From Salinibaculum litoreum (GTDB taxonomy: Archaea; Halobacteriota; Halobacteria; Halobacteriales; Haloarculaceae): a DNA stretch of 64,000 nt. Position numbers and translations under genes: made by a program. This document shows positions 7,727-49,564 of the stretch, in pieces. Every line of letters begins with the position of its first letter. Position 1 is the first letter of the stretch. The notes beneath the pieces are model-generated. The model saw only the letters and a list, made by a program, of their open reading frames with translations. It was not told the DNA's origin and ran no database searches. Location: assembly GCA_009789175.1 (NCBI GenBank), contig CP046866.1, positions 1,488,001-1,552,000 of the forward strand, given 5' to 3'.

Positions 7727-8166
7727 TACAGTTCACCTCGTGCGCGCTCTGCGAGGTCTGTCACGTCGAGACCCTGTCGGCGCGCATAGAGAACGGCGGC
7801 AGCCTCGATAGTGAGACCGAGGTCGGCCTGCAGACGGTTGATATCGGCAACTGCGGTCTGTTTTTCGACGCCCACGTCCACGACGGCATCGAGTACGCGC
7901 TCGAAGACAGACCGCTCCTGGACGACGGACTCGTCGGGGACGAAGTCGTCGGGGATGTCAACGCCGCCGACATCGAAGGCTGCGACCACGTCGTCGCCGT
8001 CACGGTCGAGCAGACCCTCACCGGTGGCAGTGTCGACGAGGCGTTTGGCCTGGTCCGGCGAGAACCAGTCCCTGTCCAGTGACAGCTCCACGACGAATTC
8101 GCTTTCGTTCATCCGGTCGACGCCCCGCTGTCGGAAGGGAGCGGCGACGGCCCGACGGAGACTCAT
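7726..8166 (-). CDS. DUF2240 family protein
   Basis: A 146-aa archaeal protein resembling the DUF2240 family, which begins MSLR.AVAAPF and carries a helical DRDWFSPDQAKRLVDTATGEGLL segment like a winged-helix or UBA-type module. The C-terminal LGLTIEAAAVLYARRQGLD also suggests a second small helical domain. A nucleic-acid or protein-interaction role is possible but unproven. The ATG at 8166 follows a TATA-like CATTTAGG at about 8192-8199. The gene is divergent from rps8e and shares a 119-bp intergenic region with it. Confidence 0.72.
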   Translation of the reverse strand: MSLRRAVAAPFRQRGVDRMNESEFVVELSLDRDWFSPDQAKRLVDTATGEGLLDRDGDDVVAAFDVGGVDIPDDFVPDESVVQERSVFERVLDAVVDVGVEKQTAVADINRLQADLGLTIEAAAVLYARRQGLDVTDLAERARGEL

Positions 8167-8285
8167 CAGTTGATGACGGGCGCGCACGACGCCTAAATGT
8201 ATCGTCACGGGCCAGCCTGCCCGTCGACCGCCGGCAGGAAAGCAGCATCGAGAGGTTGAAGTGGCCCGTGATACTTCCTGCGGGT

Positions 8286-8660
8286 ATGAAGTACCAGGGC
8301 CCATCACAGCGCAAGCGGACCGGTGGCCGACGGCGACCGGCCAGCGACAAGAAGAAACACCAGCTCGGTTCCGAGTTCACCGAGTCCCAGGTCGGCGACG
8401 GCAAGTTCAAGACCGTCGACGCCCGCGGCAACACGACGAAAGTTCGGACAATCACAGCCGATACGGCCAGCGTCGCCATCGACGGCGAGACGGTCGCCGC
8501 CGACATCGAAAACGTCGCTGAAAACCCGTCGAACCCCAACTACGCACGCCGAAACATCATCACGAAAGGTGCAATCCTCGAAACCAGCGAGGGTCGCGCA
8601 CGCGTCACCTCCCGCCCCGGACAGGACGGCCAGATCAACGCCGTGCTGGTCGAGGAATAA
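8286..8660 (+). CDS. rps8e: 30S ribosomal protein S8e
   Basis: A 124-aa archaeal/eukaryotic-type small-subunit protein. The N-terminus MKYQGPSQRKRTGGRRRPASDKKK is the basic rRNA-binding arm typical of S8e, and the C-terminal half has the conserved NPNYARRNIITKGAI segment. The frame is open further upstream, but the family start is the ATG at 8286. It is preceded at about -30 by TTGAAGTGG, a TATA variant also seen before the gene at 47791. A T-run at 8672-8676 may terminate transcription. Confidence 0.95.
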   Translation: MKYQGPSQRKRTGGRRRPASDKKKHQLGSEFTESQVGDGKFKTVDARGNTTKVRTITADTASVAIDGETVAADIENVAENPSNPNYARRNIITKGAILETSEGRARVTSRPGQDGQINAVLVEE

Positions 8661-9090
8661 CTCGTCGGCTACTTTTCAAAAAGGGCAGCGTGAAACCGCC
8701 CAGACGTGCGAGTACCCACGGAACAGCGAGGGCAGGCCAGTACCGACCTCCCGTGTATATCCGCACGTCAACAGACTCGATAGGTACGAGTCGCTTACGT
8801 CCATCTCTTCGCACCCTGCGCGAGCTGTCCCGTGCCGCAGTCACGCGGTTTGCCCGCGGAAAGAGTGTGTCTGATGTGGGATGAACAACAGTCACTGCCG
8901 AGTCGACATACCGGAGAGACTGGCGGGAAACCCGCCAGGACGTGCCTGACAGAGGCTACCGATAGTGACAGGATGGCTGATATATCTGGATTCGAGCGAG
9001 CACGCCATATGCGAGAGATGGTCGCGAGCGCATAAGCGTCGCTAAGTGTCGGTGTGTAGGGTCGGTTCCACACAGGTCTCGTCAGGAGTG
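8661..9090. other. Intergenic region with a strong hairpin, before the phosphatase-ppk operon
   Basis: About 430 bp without a credible family-level gene. It holds an 8-bp perfect stem, CTGGCGGG (8920-8927) and CCCGCCAG (8931-8938), around an AAA loop, and the 21-nt element at 8986-9006 that recurs before pstC2. A 53-codon open frame (8874-9035) spans both but has no recognisable features. A long leader or small RNA is possible. Confidence 0.5.
8986..9006 (+). repeat. 21-nt element shared with the pstC2 upstream region, copy 1
   Basis: The 21 nt starting CTGGATTCGAGCGAGC match 19979-19999 with a single mismatch (G for A at position 11). Both copies precede phosphate genes: here the phosphatase-ppk operon 160 bp downstream, there pstC2 10 bp downstream. 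This makes it a candidate phosphate-linked regulatory site. Confidence 0.5.
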
Positions 9091-44637: not shown

Positions 44638-47027
44638 CCGGATGTACACTCTGTGACCTCGATTTGCCCGAGGAACCGATTACCGCCGAGGATGTCGAGG
44701 GGTCCTTTTGCTGTCAGGGTTGTCTGACCGTCGCGCGGTCACTGGAAGAGGTCCCCGAAGAGGCGACCGACCCCGAGTCGGTTCTGGATGCCGGCGCGGA
44801 CGACGCCGACGGCGAGGTGTCGTATCTCTCCGTCGACGGCATGCACTGCTCAACGTGTGAGCTATTCCTCGAATCCAGAGCCACCGACCACGACGGCATC
44901 GAGGCCGCCTCGGCCAGTTACGCGACGGACACGATGAAGGTCGTCTACGACGATGAACGCGTCACCGGGGAGAACCTCCCCGAAGTCGTCTCGGGGGCGG
45001 GCTACGAGGCACGCGAGCGCGATGTCGAGCGGTCACCGGAACCGGAGGACGCACAGGTCGCCCGCCTGCTCGCCGGCGGGGGCTTTCTCGGGATGATGGT
45101 GATGCTGTGGTACGCGCTGTTCGTCTACCCACAGCACTTCGGGTTCGAGCCAATCGTCGATTTCGGCACCTTCGGCCGGCTCTACCTGCTCGGACAGATA
45201 TGGCTGTTCACGACAGCGATACTCCTGTATACCGGCTTTCCGTTGCTCCGTGGGGCCTACGTCAGTCTCCGGGCCGGCCAGCCGAACATGGACCTCCTCG
45301 TGGCGCTTGCGGCGACCAGTGCCTACCTCTACAGTACCGCCGTCACGGTACTGGGCGGCATCGACGTGTACTTCGACGTGACAGTCGCCATCGTGCTGGT
45401 CGTGACCGCGGGCAACTACTACGAGGACCGCGTGAAGGCCTCGGCGGTGGGGCTGCTGGCGGACCTGACCGCCGACCAGGTCAGCGAGGCTCGAACGCGT
45501 GACGGCGAGACGCTTGCCGTCGAGGAAGTCACCCCGGGAACGGAACTGCTCGTGAGACCCGGGGAGCAAATCCCACTCGACGGAACCGTTATCGAGGGGG
45601 TCGCCGCCGTCGACGAGGCGCTGGTGACCGGCGAGTCCCTGCCGGTGACCCGACGGCCGGGCGACGAGGTGGTCGGGGGCAGCGTCGTCACGGACGAACC
45701 GCTCGTGGTCGAGGTGAGCGAGGAGGGGACGAGCACGCTCGACCGCATCGTCGGCTTGCTCTGGGAAGTCCAGAGCGCACGGCCCGGCGTCCAGCAACTG
45801 GCCGACAAACTGGCGACCATTTTCGTCCCGCTGGTGACGCTCGTGGCGCTGCTGGCTGCGGCCGGGACCGTCGCCCTGGGCGGCGGTCCCACGAGTGCGC
45901 TGCTGGTCGGGCTGACGGTTCTCATCGTCTCCTGCCCGTGTGCGCTCGGGCTGGCGACCCCGCTTGCCGTCGCCGCCGGCGTCGGGCGGGCCGCCGAGGA
46001 CGGTATCGTCGTCGCCTCCGAGACGGCCTTCGAGACGCTCCCGGAGACGGACGTGGTCGCCCTCGACAAGACCGGGACGCTGACCGAAGGCGAGATGACC
46101 GTCACCGATGTGGACGGAACCGAAAAAGTGCTCGCACGCGCGAGTGCGCTCGAACGGTACGACAGACACCCCGTTGCCGACGCCATCGTCGCCCACGCCA
46201 GCACAGTCGGCGTGGACAGTGCCAGTATCGACGGCGCGCCAGCCACCGATGGCGGCACAGAGATTGCGGACCGGGAGACAACCGCCGACGAGCAGCCAGT
46301 CAGCGTCGAAACCAAGGGCGTCTCGGGAACTGTGGCTGGCGACGAGACGCTGGTCGGTCACCCTGACCTCTTCGAGAAGCGTGGCTGGACAGTTCCACAG
46401 CGCTACCGCGAACGGGCACGGGAAGCAGCCGCAAGCGGTGCCATCCCCGTACTCGTGGGATGGAGCGGGCGCTGCCAGGGTTGCATCGTCGTCGACGACC
46501 AACCCAGGGACGACTGGGACACAGTCGTCGAGGAGATAGCTGGCGAAGACCGGGACGTGGTCGTTCTCACGGGCGATGATAGCAGCGCAGTCGAGAGCTT
46601 CGAGGACCACCCCGCAGTCGACGAGGTGTTCGCCGGCCTCCCGCCCGACGGGAAGGTGGCGGCAATCGAGCGCCTGCGCGAGCGTGGGCGGGTGACGATG
46701 GTCGGCGACGGAGCCAACGACGCACCAGCCCTCGCGGCCGCCGACGCCGGCATCGCCATCGCACAGGGGCGCAAGCTTGCAGCGGACGCTGCCGACGCTG
46801 TCGTGACGACTGGTCGGCTGGGTGCCGTGTCGACGACATTCGACGTGGCGACGGCAACCAGGCGACGGGTCCGACAGAACCTCGGGTGGGCGTTTGGCTA
46901 CAACCTCGTCGCGATTCCCCTCGCCGCGACGGGACTGTTGAACCCGCTGTTTGCCGCCCTCGCGATGGGAACGAGCAGCGCGCTCGTCGTCATCAACTCC
47001 AGCCGGACCGTCGTTCCCAATGACTGA
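44634..47027 (+). CDS. Copper-translocating P-type ATPase (CtpA/CcoI type)
   Basis: A 797-aa P1B-type ATPase. It starts with a cysteine-rich metal domain (CTLCDLDLPEE...SFCCQGC) typical of CcoI/CtpA ATPases, then a heavy-metal-associated domain with GMHCSTC. Membrane motif SCPCALGLATP, phosphorylation motif DKTGTLTEGEMT, TGES, the HP dipeptide in RYDRHPVADAI and hinge GDGANDAPALAAAD are all intact. The family moves Cu(I) outwards to supply oxidase maturation rather than only for detoxification. Clustering with ba3 oxidase and the SafE-like gene supports that role. Confidence 0.9.
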   Translation: MTGCTLCDLDLPEEPITAEDVEGSFCCQGCLTVARSLEEVPEEATDPESVLDAGADDADGEVSYLSVDGMHCSTCELFLESRATDHDGIEAASASYATDTMKVVYDDERVTGENLPEVVSGAGYEARERDVERSPEPEDAQVARLLAGGGFLGMMVMLWYALFVYPQHFGFEPIVDFGTFGRLYLLGQIWLFTTAILLYTGFPLLRGAYVSLRAGQPNMDLLVALAATSAYLYSTAVTVLGGIDVYFDVTVAIVLVVTAGNYYEDRVKASAVGLLADLTADQVSEARTRDGETLAVEEVTPGTELLVRPGEQIPLDGTVIEGVAAVDEALVTGESLPVTRRPGDEVVGGSVVTDEPLVVEVSEEGTSTLDRIVGLLWEVQSARPGVQQLADKLATIFVPLVTLVALLAAAGTVALGGGPTSALLVGLTVLIVSCPCALGLATPLAVAAGVGRAAEDGIVVASETAFETLPETDVVALDKTGTLTEGEMTVTDVDGTEKVLARASALERYDRHPVADAIVAHASTVGVDSASIDGAPATDGGTEIADRETTADEQPVSVETKGVSGTVAGDETLVGHPDLFEKRGWTVPQRYRERAREAAASGAIPVLVGWSGRCQGCIVVDDQPRDDWDTVVEEIAGEDRDVVVLTGDDSSAVESFEDHPAVDEVFAGLPPDGKVAAIERLRERGRVTMVGDGANDAPALAAADAGIAIAQGRKLAADAADAVVTTGRLGAVSTTFDVATATRRRVRQNLGWAFGYNLVAIPLAATGLLNPLFAALAMGTSSALVVINSSRTVVPND

Positions 47028-47317: not shown

Positions 47318-47713
47318 GTGAGCGAGGCGGGCATTTTAGGCCAGTTGCGACCCAACGAGCAGGGTGTGTTACCAGACATCACTGTCTTCGGTCCGTACAC
47401 ATACCTCGTGACCGAACTGTTCTGGGGCTCGCTTGCAGTGACACTCGTTGCGTACGCTGGCGCGTGGCGGGAAGCCGCACGAACCGTGGCCCTGGTCTAT
47501 CTACCGGCGTACATCTGGGACTGGTATACGCTGACTGTCGGCGTCTTCGCTATCCCGATGCGAACCGGCGTCGAACTGCTTGGCATCCCCATCGAGGAAC
47601 ACATCTTCATGGTGGTCGTCCCGACGATGGTCATCGGCACCCACGAGACGCTCCGAAAACTCGACAGCGAGGGGCACCTGCCGGCGGTACTCACGATGGA
47701 AGACGGAGAGTAG
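47318..47713 (+). CDS. Single lycopene-cyclase-domain protein
   Basis: A 131-aa membrane protein with about three helices. The segment GIPIEEHIFMVVVPTMVIG matches the PxEE(H/F)xFF-type signature of the CrtYcd/CrtYcYd lycopene cyclases, and LVYLPAYIWDWYTLTVGVF matches the preceding helix. Typical haloarchaeal lycopene cyclase is a fused two-domain protein of about 270 aa; this is a single half, like the heterodimeric cyclase subunits of some bacteria. It starts with GTG. No crt genes are nearby, so its substrate may be a different isoprenoid or it may be a relic. Confidence 0.62.
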   Translation: MSEAGILGQLRPNEQGVLPDITVFGPYTYLVTELFWGSLAVTLVAYAGAWREAARTVALVYLPAYIWDWYTLTVGVFAIPMRTGVELLGIPIEEHIFMVVVPTMVIGTHETLRKLDSEGHLPAVLTMEDGE

Positions 47714-47790: not shown

Positions 47791-48282
47791 ATGACACCCA
47801 ATCAGCCACCGGCAGTCGAGCTGTATGTCAGGTCACTCTCCTCGCGGACCTGTCGAACCGAGCGCGTCATCGAGCAGTTGCGCCAGCTCGATGCCGACGG
47901 TGAACTGTCGGACCTGGCTGTCACCGTCTGGGGGGACGGAGTCGACCTCTCGTCGACGGCTATCGAGACACCGCGAGGGCAAGCAATTCTCGACACCGTC
48001 GAGGAATTCCGGACGTGGGCCGAAGGCAGAGACCACTCGGTCGAGCCCTTCTTCCAGCGCCAGAAGGCACAGTCGACGATGACCGGCAAGACCCACGCCA
48101 CGTTGCAGTTACCCTCGATGATGCTGGCCGAATACGCTGGCGACCAGCTCATCCGGGTCACCCCCCACGAGGAGAACGGCACCGTCTGGACGGTCAGCGA
48201 CCGGGTCGAAAGACTCGCGACCGACATCGAGGAGACGCCTGAAAGTCGGACTGTCAAACCAGAGGGCCCCGGACCGGCCTGA
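47791..48282 (+). CDS. Conserved haloarchaeal HTH-type protein
   Basis: A 163-aa protein beginning MTPNQPPAVELYVRSLSSRTCRTERVIEQLRQLDADGEL. The N-terminal helices around RTERVIEQLRQL resemble a winged-helix/HTH half, and TVWGDGV plus KTHATLQLPSMMLAEY are conserved blocks of a haloarchaeal family of unknown role. An ATG three codons earlier is possible, but the TATA-like TTGAAGTGG at 47760-47768 sits about 25-30 bp before 47791, supporting the later start. Function unknown; probably regulatory. Confidence 0.6.
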   Translation: MTPNQPPAVELYVRSLSSRTCRTERVIEQLRQLDADGELSDLAVTVWGDGVDLSSTAIETPRGQAILDTVEEFRTWAEGRDHSVEPFFQRQKAQSTMTGKTHATLQLPSMMLAEYAGDQLIRVTPHEENGTVWTVSDRVERLATDIEETPESRTVKPEGPGPA

Positions 48283-48368: not shown

Positions 48369-48788
48369 TCAGGCCGTGGCCGCGGCGAGGTCTTCGAGAT
48401 AGTCGAACTGGGCGTTCAGTTCCTTCTTGCGCTGGCGGCGGATGATTGTCCCATCGAGAATCGACCCGACGAGGCTCACGTCCAGCGCGAAATCCGTCGT
48501 CGCCGTGACCGTTACGGTGCCGTCGCCCTCCTCCAGCGTGTATCTGGTGACCATCGACTCGAAGATGCCCTCGACCTGCTCGTATGCGAGGACCGAGTCG
48601 CTGTCGATGACCCGCAGGTCCAGTTCGATAGTCAGCAGGCCGACGTGGTTGGCAATCGAGACCGCATCGCCGTCGACGACCACATCGTCGAAGCCCGCCG
48701 CCTCGATGAACGGCCCCAAATCGAGCATTGCCTCCCGGACCTGGTCGGCCTCGCCCTCGAACGAGCGACTTACCGATACCGTTTCCAT
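48369..48788 (-). CDS. SRPBCC-fold (START-like) protein
   Basis: A 139-aa protein of the Bet v1/SRPBCC helix-grip superfamily. It begins with METVSVSRSFEGEADQVREAM, the strand-helix opening typical of this fold, and has the central beta pattern VTVTATTDFALDVSLVGSILDG and the long final helix RRQRKKELNAQFDYLEDLA that lines the cavity. The fold binds small hydrophobic ligands. The gene is divergent from the HTH regulator gene at 48914 across a 125-bp region with three matching palindromes, so it is probably that regulator's target or effector partner. Confidence 0.75.
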   Translation of the reverse strand: METVSVSRSFEGEADQVREAMLDLGPFIEAAGFDDVVVDGDAVSIANHVGLLTIELDLRVIDSDSVLAYEQVEGIFESMVTRYTLEEGDGTVTVTATTDFALDVSLVGSILDGTIIRRQRKKELNAQFDYLEDLAAATA

Positions 48789-48823
48789 GCTCGTCCTACG
48801 CACATCCAACTGAAGTGGATGTC

Positions 48824-48915
48824 GACGAACGTGTTCGTCTGATTTCGGCGGAGGTTCTATACGTCGAACATGTTCGGGAACACTGATTGCCCTCGGGACG
48901 AATATATTCGAATAT
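48824..48915. promoter_or_regulatory. Three related palindromic operators between the SRPBCC and HTH genes
   Basis: Site 1 at 48824-48839: GACGAAC/GTTCGTC, 7-bp arms with a 2-nt spacer. Site 2 at 48865-48876: CGAACATGTTCG, a perfect 12-bp palindrome. Site 3 at 48899-48910: CGAATATATTCG, also perfect, with a further palindrome ATATTCGAATAT (48904-48915) overlapping it. Shared consensus CGAA(C/T)N2(A/G)TTCG, centres 39 and 34 bp apart. Site 3 overlaps the ATG at 48914 and could double as a TATA-like element. The pattern implies a dimeric regulator binding cooperatively and controlling both divergent genes. Confidence 0.72.
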
Positions 48916-49564
48916 GCCACAGGCAAAGCTTCGACTCACGCTGCCGGAAGAGGTGTGGGTCGGGGAAGTGACCCGGTCGTTCCCCGACGCGACGATACGG
49001 ATTCTCGCAGCGCTGTCGGACGAAGGGGCAGGTGTCGGGCTGGCCGAAATCTCAGCGCCGGACCCACGGGAGGTCGTCCGGGCGATGAAAGCAGCGGAGG
49101 ACGTGACGGGCATCGAGACGCTCAAATACAGCGAAGACGAGGTGTTGGTGCAGTTCGAGACCACCATGCCGTTGCTGTTGTTACCGGCGCGTGACTCGGG
49201 TGTCCCCCTGGAGATGCCCTTCGAGATTCAGGACGGGACGGCCGTCTGGGAGGTGACAGCGCCGAGTGACCGGCTGTCCGAACTCGGGACACAACTGGAA
49301 GCGTTCGATATCTCCTTCACGGTCGACTACGTCCAACAGCGTCTCGACCAGGAACAGCTCGTGACCGACCGACAACGGCGTATTATCCTCCAGGCCATCG
49401 AGGAGGGCTACTACGACACGCCACGGACCTGCTCGCTGACGGAACTCGCGGACACCGTGGATATCGCCAAATCGACCGCAAGCGAGACGCTTCACCGTGC
49501 CGAGGAGAAAATCGTCAAACACTTCGCCGAGCAACTCGCCAGCGACCCGACTGACCGAGTCTAG
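48914..49564 (+). CDS. Bat-like helix-turn-helix transcription regulator
   Basis: A 216-aa haloarchaeal regulator. The N-terminal half (PQAKLRLTLPEEVWVGEVTRSFPDATIRILAAL) is the conserved sensor-like domain of the bacterioopsin-activator-like group; the C-terminal HTH_10-type domain is near residues 150-205 (TELADTVDIAKSTASETLHRAEEKIVKHF). It reads towards the Pit transporter and overlaps its stop by 4 bp in convergent orientation. Palindromes at its start suggest autoregulation. The signal it senses is unknown. Confidence 0.85.
   Translation: MPQAKLRLTLPEEVWVGEVTRSFPDATIRILAALSDEGAGVGLAEISAPDPREVVRAMKAAEDVTGIETLKYSEDEVLVQFETTMPLLLLPARDSGVPLEMPFEIQDGTAVWEVTAPSDRLSELGTQLEAFDISFTVDYVQQRLDQEQLVTDRQRRIILQAIEEGYYDTPRTCSLTELADTVDIAKSTASETLHRAEEKIVKHFAEQLASDPTDRV

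Follow-up and report, generated by a model that had tools for sequence, protein, structure and literature searches.

Which protein reads the three palindromes in the gap between the divergent genes of an SRPBCC protein and an HTH_10 regulator, and what do they control? The initial annotation had suggested that this locus could be a private, autoregulated two-gene switch, made of a Bat-like regulator and a ligand-pocket protein and responding to a small hydrophobic molecule. We analysed the whole stretch of 64 kb (the window), the complete genome, 80 named orthologues of the regulator from one scan (Haloferax mediterranei itself is absent from this set) and 58 related genomes. The palindromes appear to be operators of a nitrogen-oxide (denitrification or nitrosative stress) regulon, with the adjacent HTH_10 protein as their most likely binder; the probability of this reading is roughly 0.7. 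Its basis is the sites, their conservation and fixed positions, the genes sharing them, and the linkage of the regulator family to nirK and qNor, all taken from sequence.

Palindromes and proteins of the divergent locus

The 125-bp gap contains three perfect CGAAY-RY-RTTCG palindromes (Table 1), all fitting the narrower consensus CGAAYRYRTTCG. The matched palindromes and their spacings of 39 and 34 bp, as given in the initial annotation, were confirmed with exact sequences and coordinates. Its last palindrome does not, however, overlap the start codon of the HTH gene: the orthologues begin at the same MPxA, hence the start is ATG 48914, and palindrome 3 therefore ends three bases upstream of the gene. 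An alternative start at TTG 48887, which would place palindrome 3 inside the gene, was rejected for the same reason. An inverted repeat ACATCC-aactgaagt-GGATGT (48802-48807 / 48817-48822) lies between palindrome 1 and the SRPBCC start; it may be the site of a second factor or a product of chance.

Table 1. Features of the SRPBCC/HTH_10 promoter region, in window coordinates
Feature	Position	Strand	Description
SRPBCC/START-fold gene	48369..48788	-	139 aa; divergent from the HTH gene; fold from the model (pLDDT 90.5), Foldseek and VIA-align
Palindrome 1	48826..48837	.	CGAACGTGTTCG; centre at -43.5 relative to the SRPBCC ATG; presumed to activate SRPBCC from upstream
Palindrome 2	48865..48876	.	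CGAACATGTTCG; centre at -43.5 relative to the HTH ATG; abuts BRE/TATA; putative activating site of the HTH gene
HTH core promoter	48877..48898	+	GGAACACTGATTG...; resembles BRE/TATA, with a poor TATA; flanked by palindromes 2 and 3
Palindrome 3	48899..48910	.	CGAATATATTCG; centre at -9.5 relative to the HTH ATG; lies between the TATA region and the start of transcription; putative site of autorepression
HTH_10 regulator gene	48914..49564	+	216 aa; PF04967, 68.4 bits (cut-off 23.1); start conserved; model pLDDT 91.5

The looser pattern CGAAYNNRTTCG has no matches in the 64-kb window besides these three; in 100 dinucleotide shuffles of the same 64 kb the mean was 0.47, and three matches anywhere were reached in one shuffle. 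The genome-wide search suggested by the initial annotation yielded 40 sites in 3.73 Mb, compared to 3 for a reversed control pattern. Most of the other matches fall within long frames and are probably background. The AT-centred form CGAAYATRTTCG occurs three times in the genome, twice in the HTH/SRPBCC gap and once before a multicopper oxidase (MCO) gene.

The predicted structure of the regulator combines an ACT/ferredoxin-like N-terminal domain (residues 1-143) with a C-terminal HTH of the sigma4/LuxR type. The best VIA-align match is Ta1207 (Z 11.6, 2.9 A, 137 residues), ACT and NikR structures being weaker (Z about 6), and these matches are a hint of the fold only. The top Foldseek hits (peptidases, a poxvirus polymerase, gyrase) were disregarded for their very low TM-scores. 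The recognition helix AKSTxSExLHRAE is almost invariant in the family, and no conserved Cys or His was found in the sensor domain. The Bat-like character proposed initially holds for the HTH_10 (Bat-type) domain; however, the protein is not Bat, as it contains no PAS or GAF domain and its match to the BAT family (17.1 bits) is below the cut-off of 25.8.

The SRPBCC/START helix-grip fold with a long C-terminal helix, and with it the initial assignment of a ligand-pocket neighbour, is supported by the predicted structure (Foldseek E 6e-8 to 2d4r; VIA-align Z 16.2, 2.8 A over 133 residues, to 4n0g). The fold matches include CoxG structures and the PYL hormone receptors; no Pfam family, CoxG included, matched the protein at E 0.01. 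Beside the SRPBCC gene are those of a lycopene-cyclase-domain protein (47318-47713, sub-threshold) and an HTH_63 protein (47791-48282), both lacking the palindrome. A heavy-metal P-type ATPase is encoded at 45015-47027, and 6 of the 80 orthologue loci have CuATPase-like genes close to the regulator gene. In most Haloarcula relatives (L173, L177, L178, L186) the SRPBCC gene is followed by a TIGR04053 radical-SAM gene, AhbD-like (heme b synthase), which the window lacks.

A known box and its wider regulon

The denitrification box CGAAYATDKTYG of H. mediterranei precedes nirK, nor and nosZ (PMC10062603, PMC11218638). Its mutation significantly lowered the activity of the nosZ and nor promoters, and the dependence of promoter activity on the box under anoxic conditions has been shown for these two genes in H. 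mediterranei only (PMC10062603). A 2024 transcriptome study states that the regulator binding the box is undisclosed, and names as a candidate E6P09_00735, a bacterioopsin-activator-like gene that belongs to the nirK/nor cluster and is itself preceded by the box (PMC11218638). Palindromes 2 and 3 fit this consensus, palindrome 1 deviates from it by one mismatch, and palindrome 2, CGAACATGTTCG, is identical to the site of nosZ and nor in H. mediterranei. Judged by their sequence, the three palindromes are copies of the haloarchaeal denitrification box.

The regulator family is linked to the same metabolism. Plasmid-borne orthologues in Halomarina, Haloferax larsenii, Halorussus, Haloprofundus and Halobaculum adjoin nirK, qNor, halocyanin and DUF2249 genes, and linkage to these or to MCO genes extends to Halobellus. 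Among the 80 orthologue loci, qNor is a neighbour in 27, nirK in 17 and a halocyanin-like gene in 31. The window regulator itself has SRPBCC as its partner, and its presumed targets are not linked to it. Since the box is a known one and the orthologues reside in nirK/qNor clusters, the HTH/SRPBCC pair belongs to a wider nitrogen-oxide regulon.

Thus the private two-gene switch proposed initially, with a small hydrophobic molecule held by the SRPBCC protein as its signal, was not borne out, and we regard it as highly improbable. It agrees with the divergent arrangement of the pair, kept in many Haloarculaceae, and with the fold of the SRPBCC protein, given the hormone receptors and CoxG among its matches. 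However, the palindrome occurs in many other promoters, in this genome and beyond. Moreover, the SRPBCC gene is near the HTH gene in only 21 of 80 orthologue loci and apart from it in some genomes. The hydrophobic signal found no support, nor did any contact; SRPBCC is one of many genes with the palindrome. Halobellus has the SRPBCC gene in its nirK/qNor clusters, and Halorientalis has it next to nirK; a modest reading is that it encodes an accessory protein of the same nitrogen-oxide response as the regulator.

Relatives have the box before nirK, nor, MCO and halocyanin genes. In the own genome the MCO gene has it at about -75 and the gene of a COX1-like membrane protein at -44.5; the halocyanin gene that diverges from nirK has a copy with one mismatch at -74.5. 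The own nirK was confirmed as a copper nitrite reductase gene, and its site is degenerate and far (-141.5). No near-palindrome was observed upstream of the own qNor gene on replicon C2 (L261 9877-12180), which is perhaps an import outside the regulon. A transposase-like ORF (7908-8729) lies upstream of that gene.

In the 58 related genomes we found 112 AT-centred sites versus a handful for the reversed pattern. The genes following them include HTH orthologues and genes encoding MoaD/ThiS-like, DUF2249 and COX1-like proteins and the hybrid-cluster protein (TIGR01703, 552 bits). In bacteria, this last protein and NO reductase typify nitrogen-oxide regulons (PMC1274295). A sister species has the palindrome at -45.5 of a gene for a methyl-accepting chemotaxis protein (L259 3-1973) with a PilJ-type (NarX-like) N-terminal domain, which suggests that taxis to nitrate or nitrite is part of the regulon. 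In two genomes (L140 899-1462, L233) the palindrome stands at -44.5 of a gene for an unannotated family of proteins (about 185 aa) that matches nothing in Pfam. About half of the AT-centred sites are not tied to a marker gene, and some of these lie inside long frames, so the list of regulon members is neither complete nor free of background. Genomes with an orthologue of the regulator contain 2.7 sites on average, and those lacking it 0.9 (p 8e-5 in a test that ignores phylogeny); the co-occurrence keeps p 0.006 after removal of the regulator's own sites and about 0.04 when also limited to near-complete genomes, phylogeny again being ignored.

Site positions and the predicted circuit

Of the 80 orthologues, 67 have a perfect site (60 promoters) or one with a single mismatch at -40 to -55 of the HTH start, against 0.4 expected from the surrounding sequence; the other 13 promoters have no site at this distance. 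A second, proximal copy at -7 to -20 was observed in 22 of 80 promoters, where 0.3 are expected, and is distributed over several separate clades in the tree of the regulator. The distance between the upstream and the proximal sites is fairly constant, 34-37 bp. The initial annotation had made its proposal depend on conservation in relatives, and the palindromes are indeed conserved, at fixed positions. Its suggestion of autoregulation is likewise supported, as conserved fixed positions in the HTH gene's own promoter are what autoregulation predicts.

These data also bear on the possibility that the palindromes are chance products of a GC-rich genome. The 40 matches to the looser pattern, most of them in coding regions, could be cited for it. 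However, at the genome density 0.0013 sites are expected in the 125-bp gap, compared to three found, and the conserved position in the orthologues already refutes this explanation, whose probability is negligible.

When 69 HTH promoters were aligned on the upstream palindrome, CGAACATGTTCG was immediately followed by GGgAA-ACTTAT, a BRE/TATA-like stretch. Thus the upstream palindrome abuts the core promoter and the proximal site lies downstream of it. Other targets keep positions of their own: the site is at -71 to -74 in 22 of 25 qNor promoters, at about -73 in 14 of 16 MCO promoters, at about -83 in 10 of 17 nirK promoters, and at -44/-45 in 10 of 13 promoters of COX1-like genes. The SRPBCC promoters have moderately kept their own site at -44 to -49, and palindrome 1 has the same position relative to SRPBCC in five relatives (G001, G002, G013, G021 and G044; 0-1 mismatch). 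In one further relative (L050) the gap is only 88 bp, with a single near-palindrome about 44 bp from both genes. Their positions explain the number of three palindromes in the window: the first would serve SRPBCC, the second and third the HTH gene.

The HTH_10 protein is probably the binder of the box. It would bind CGAAYRYRTTCG as a dimer. The upstream site is likely to activate: at a site about 44 bp before the start codon, beside BRE/TATA, the bound protein would recruit the transcription machinery, and at sites about 72 bp before the start the recruitment would be the same, a leader of about 27 nt being likely. Palindrome 1 would thus activate SRPBCC, and palindrome 2 the regulator's own gene. 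Palindrome 3, lying between TATA and the start, may well repress this latter gene, for which we see a somewhat better than even chance. The HTH promoter would then be blocked once the protein is abundant, positive feedback being followed by negative. The trigger is a guess: NO, nitrite or low oxygen, acting via the ACT-like N-terminal domain or a partner, would be the signal with about even odds.

Palindrome 3 could instead be a second contact of the activator, or an AT-rich promoter element that fits the consensus by accident. Its AT-rich centre, TATATA, is in keeping with the latter, and the near-constant 34-37 bp to palindrome 2 makes cooperative binding conceivable. However, a TATA box at palindrome 3 would start transcription within the gene, and Halorussus and Halovivax have the GC-centred CGAACGTGTTCG at -7.5, which contains no TATA box. 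We therefore consider both versions rather unlikely and prefer autorepression by the regulator.

It is also unlikely, somewhat more so, that the box is bound by another regulator, such as a NarO-type protein, the small winged-helix protein HTH2 encoded beside nirK and MCO genes, or a DtxR-like protein, the window HTH gene being only a target. Denitrification in H. volcanii is under the control of NarO, and a paper citing that work reports a similar motif from other haloarchaea (PMC10062603). The HTH2 gene accompanies the HTH gene at 28 of the 80 loci, and in the own genome it is found close to nirK. However, the CXCX7C part of the NarO motif is present in none of the 28 HTH_10 frames of the own genome, several long ones of which were read incompletely, and the promoters of HTH2 genes lack the palindrome in 21 of 29 cases, compared with the 72 of 80 HTH promoters that have it. 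The proximal site was observed in only one of 138 other target promoters examined, that of a DUF2249 gene; such near-confinement to the HTH promoter is what autoregulation predicts. Among the 28 HTH_10 genes of the own genome, only the window gene is preceded by palindromes. A paralogue on replicon C3 (L264, C3:31757-32374), 45% identical, has nearly the same recognition helix and a promoter with no palindrome, so the target cannot be read from the helix alone. Plasmid-borne relatives from the paralogue's clade are located near gdhB and rubrerythrin-like genes.

The window HTH_10 protein is, from these sequence comparisons, a strong candidate for the reader of the denitrification box. The comparison over 80 orthologues and 58 genomes indicates one regulator family with a box, a position rule and a list of targets, and predicts a two-site feedback circuit for the regulator's own promoter. 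The three-site promoter now makes the identity of the box-binding protein testable, and how N2O- and NO-producing respiration is controlled in salt environments becomes open to direct test. A broader proposal, which we consider doubtful, is that the family is the master regulator of nitrogen-oxide respiration throughout haloarchaea: the ACT-like domain would sense NO, nitrite or redox state with no conserved Cys or His, and the activator and repressor sites flanking its own core promoter would set its level.

Relation to known regulators

By the features tested, the window regulator is neither Bat nor NarO. Bat, the activator of bop in Halobacterium salinarum, has its activator site just upstream of the TATA region. 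The window protein has the same HTH_10 DNA-binding domain, and its putative activator site is placed likewise; however, the PAS and GAF domains of Bat are missing, and the DNA motif and the targets differ. NarO of H. volcanii is likewise an HTH_10 regulator of haloarchaeal denitrification, and Hattori et al. in 2016 reportedly found its N-terminal CXnCXCX7C motif to be needed for function. This motif is absent from the window protein, which contains a single cysteine.

In the bacterial NnrR, DNR, HcpR and NsrR systems, nitrite and NO reductases and the hybrid-cluster protein are similarly controlled through one palindromic box (PMC1274295). However, the proteins are unrelated: HTH_10 with an ACT-like domain here, CRP/FNR or Rrf2 there. 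The window system would thus work like the NnrR/HcpR-type regulons by analogy, and is not a member of them.

A close likeness is to H. mediterranei, where the palindrome is the same, partly letter for letter, and the targets nirK, nor, MCO, halocyanin, DUF2249 and a bacterioopsin-activator-like gene are common to both. The latter, E6P09_00735, encodes an HTH_10 protein lacking PAS and GAF, in a nirK/nor cluster and with the motif in its promoter. Orthologues of the window regulator in other Haloferax species have the same surroundings, and from this synteny we infer that E6P09_00735 is orthologous to it. The window regulator differs in having no linkage to its presumed targets and an SRPBCC gene as its partner. 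We assign the window system to the haloarchaeal denitrification-box regulon as one more member. The H. mediterranei papers list the motif and a candidate activator and leave the binding protein unnamed (PMC10062603, PMC11218638); the present analysis adds the two sites flanking the core promoter of the regulator, the rule of fixed positions at -44 and -72, the occurrence in many families, and SRPBCC, Hcp and a nitrate-sensor-type MCP as targets.
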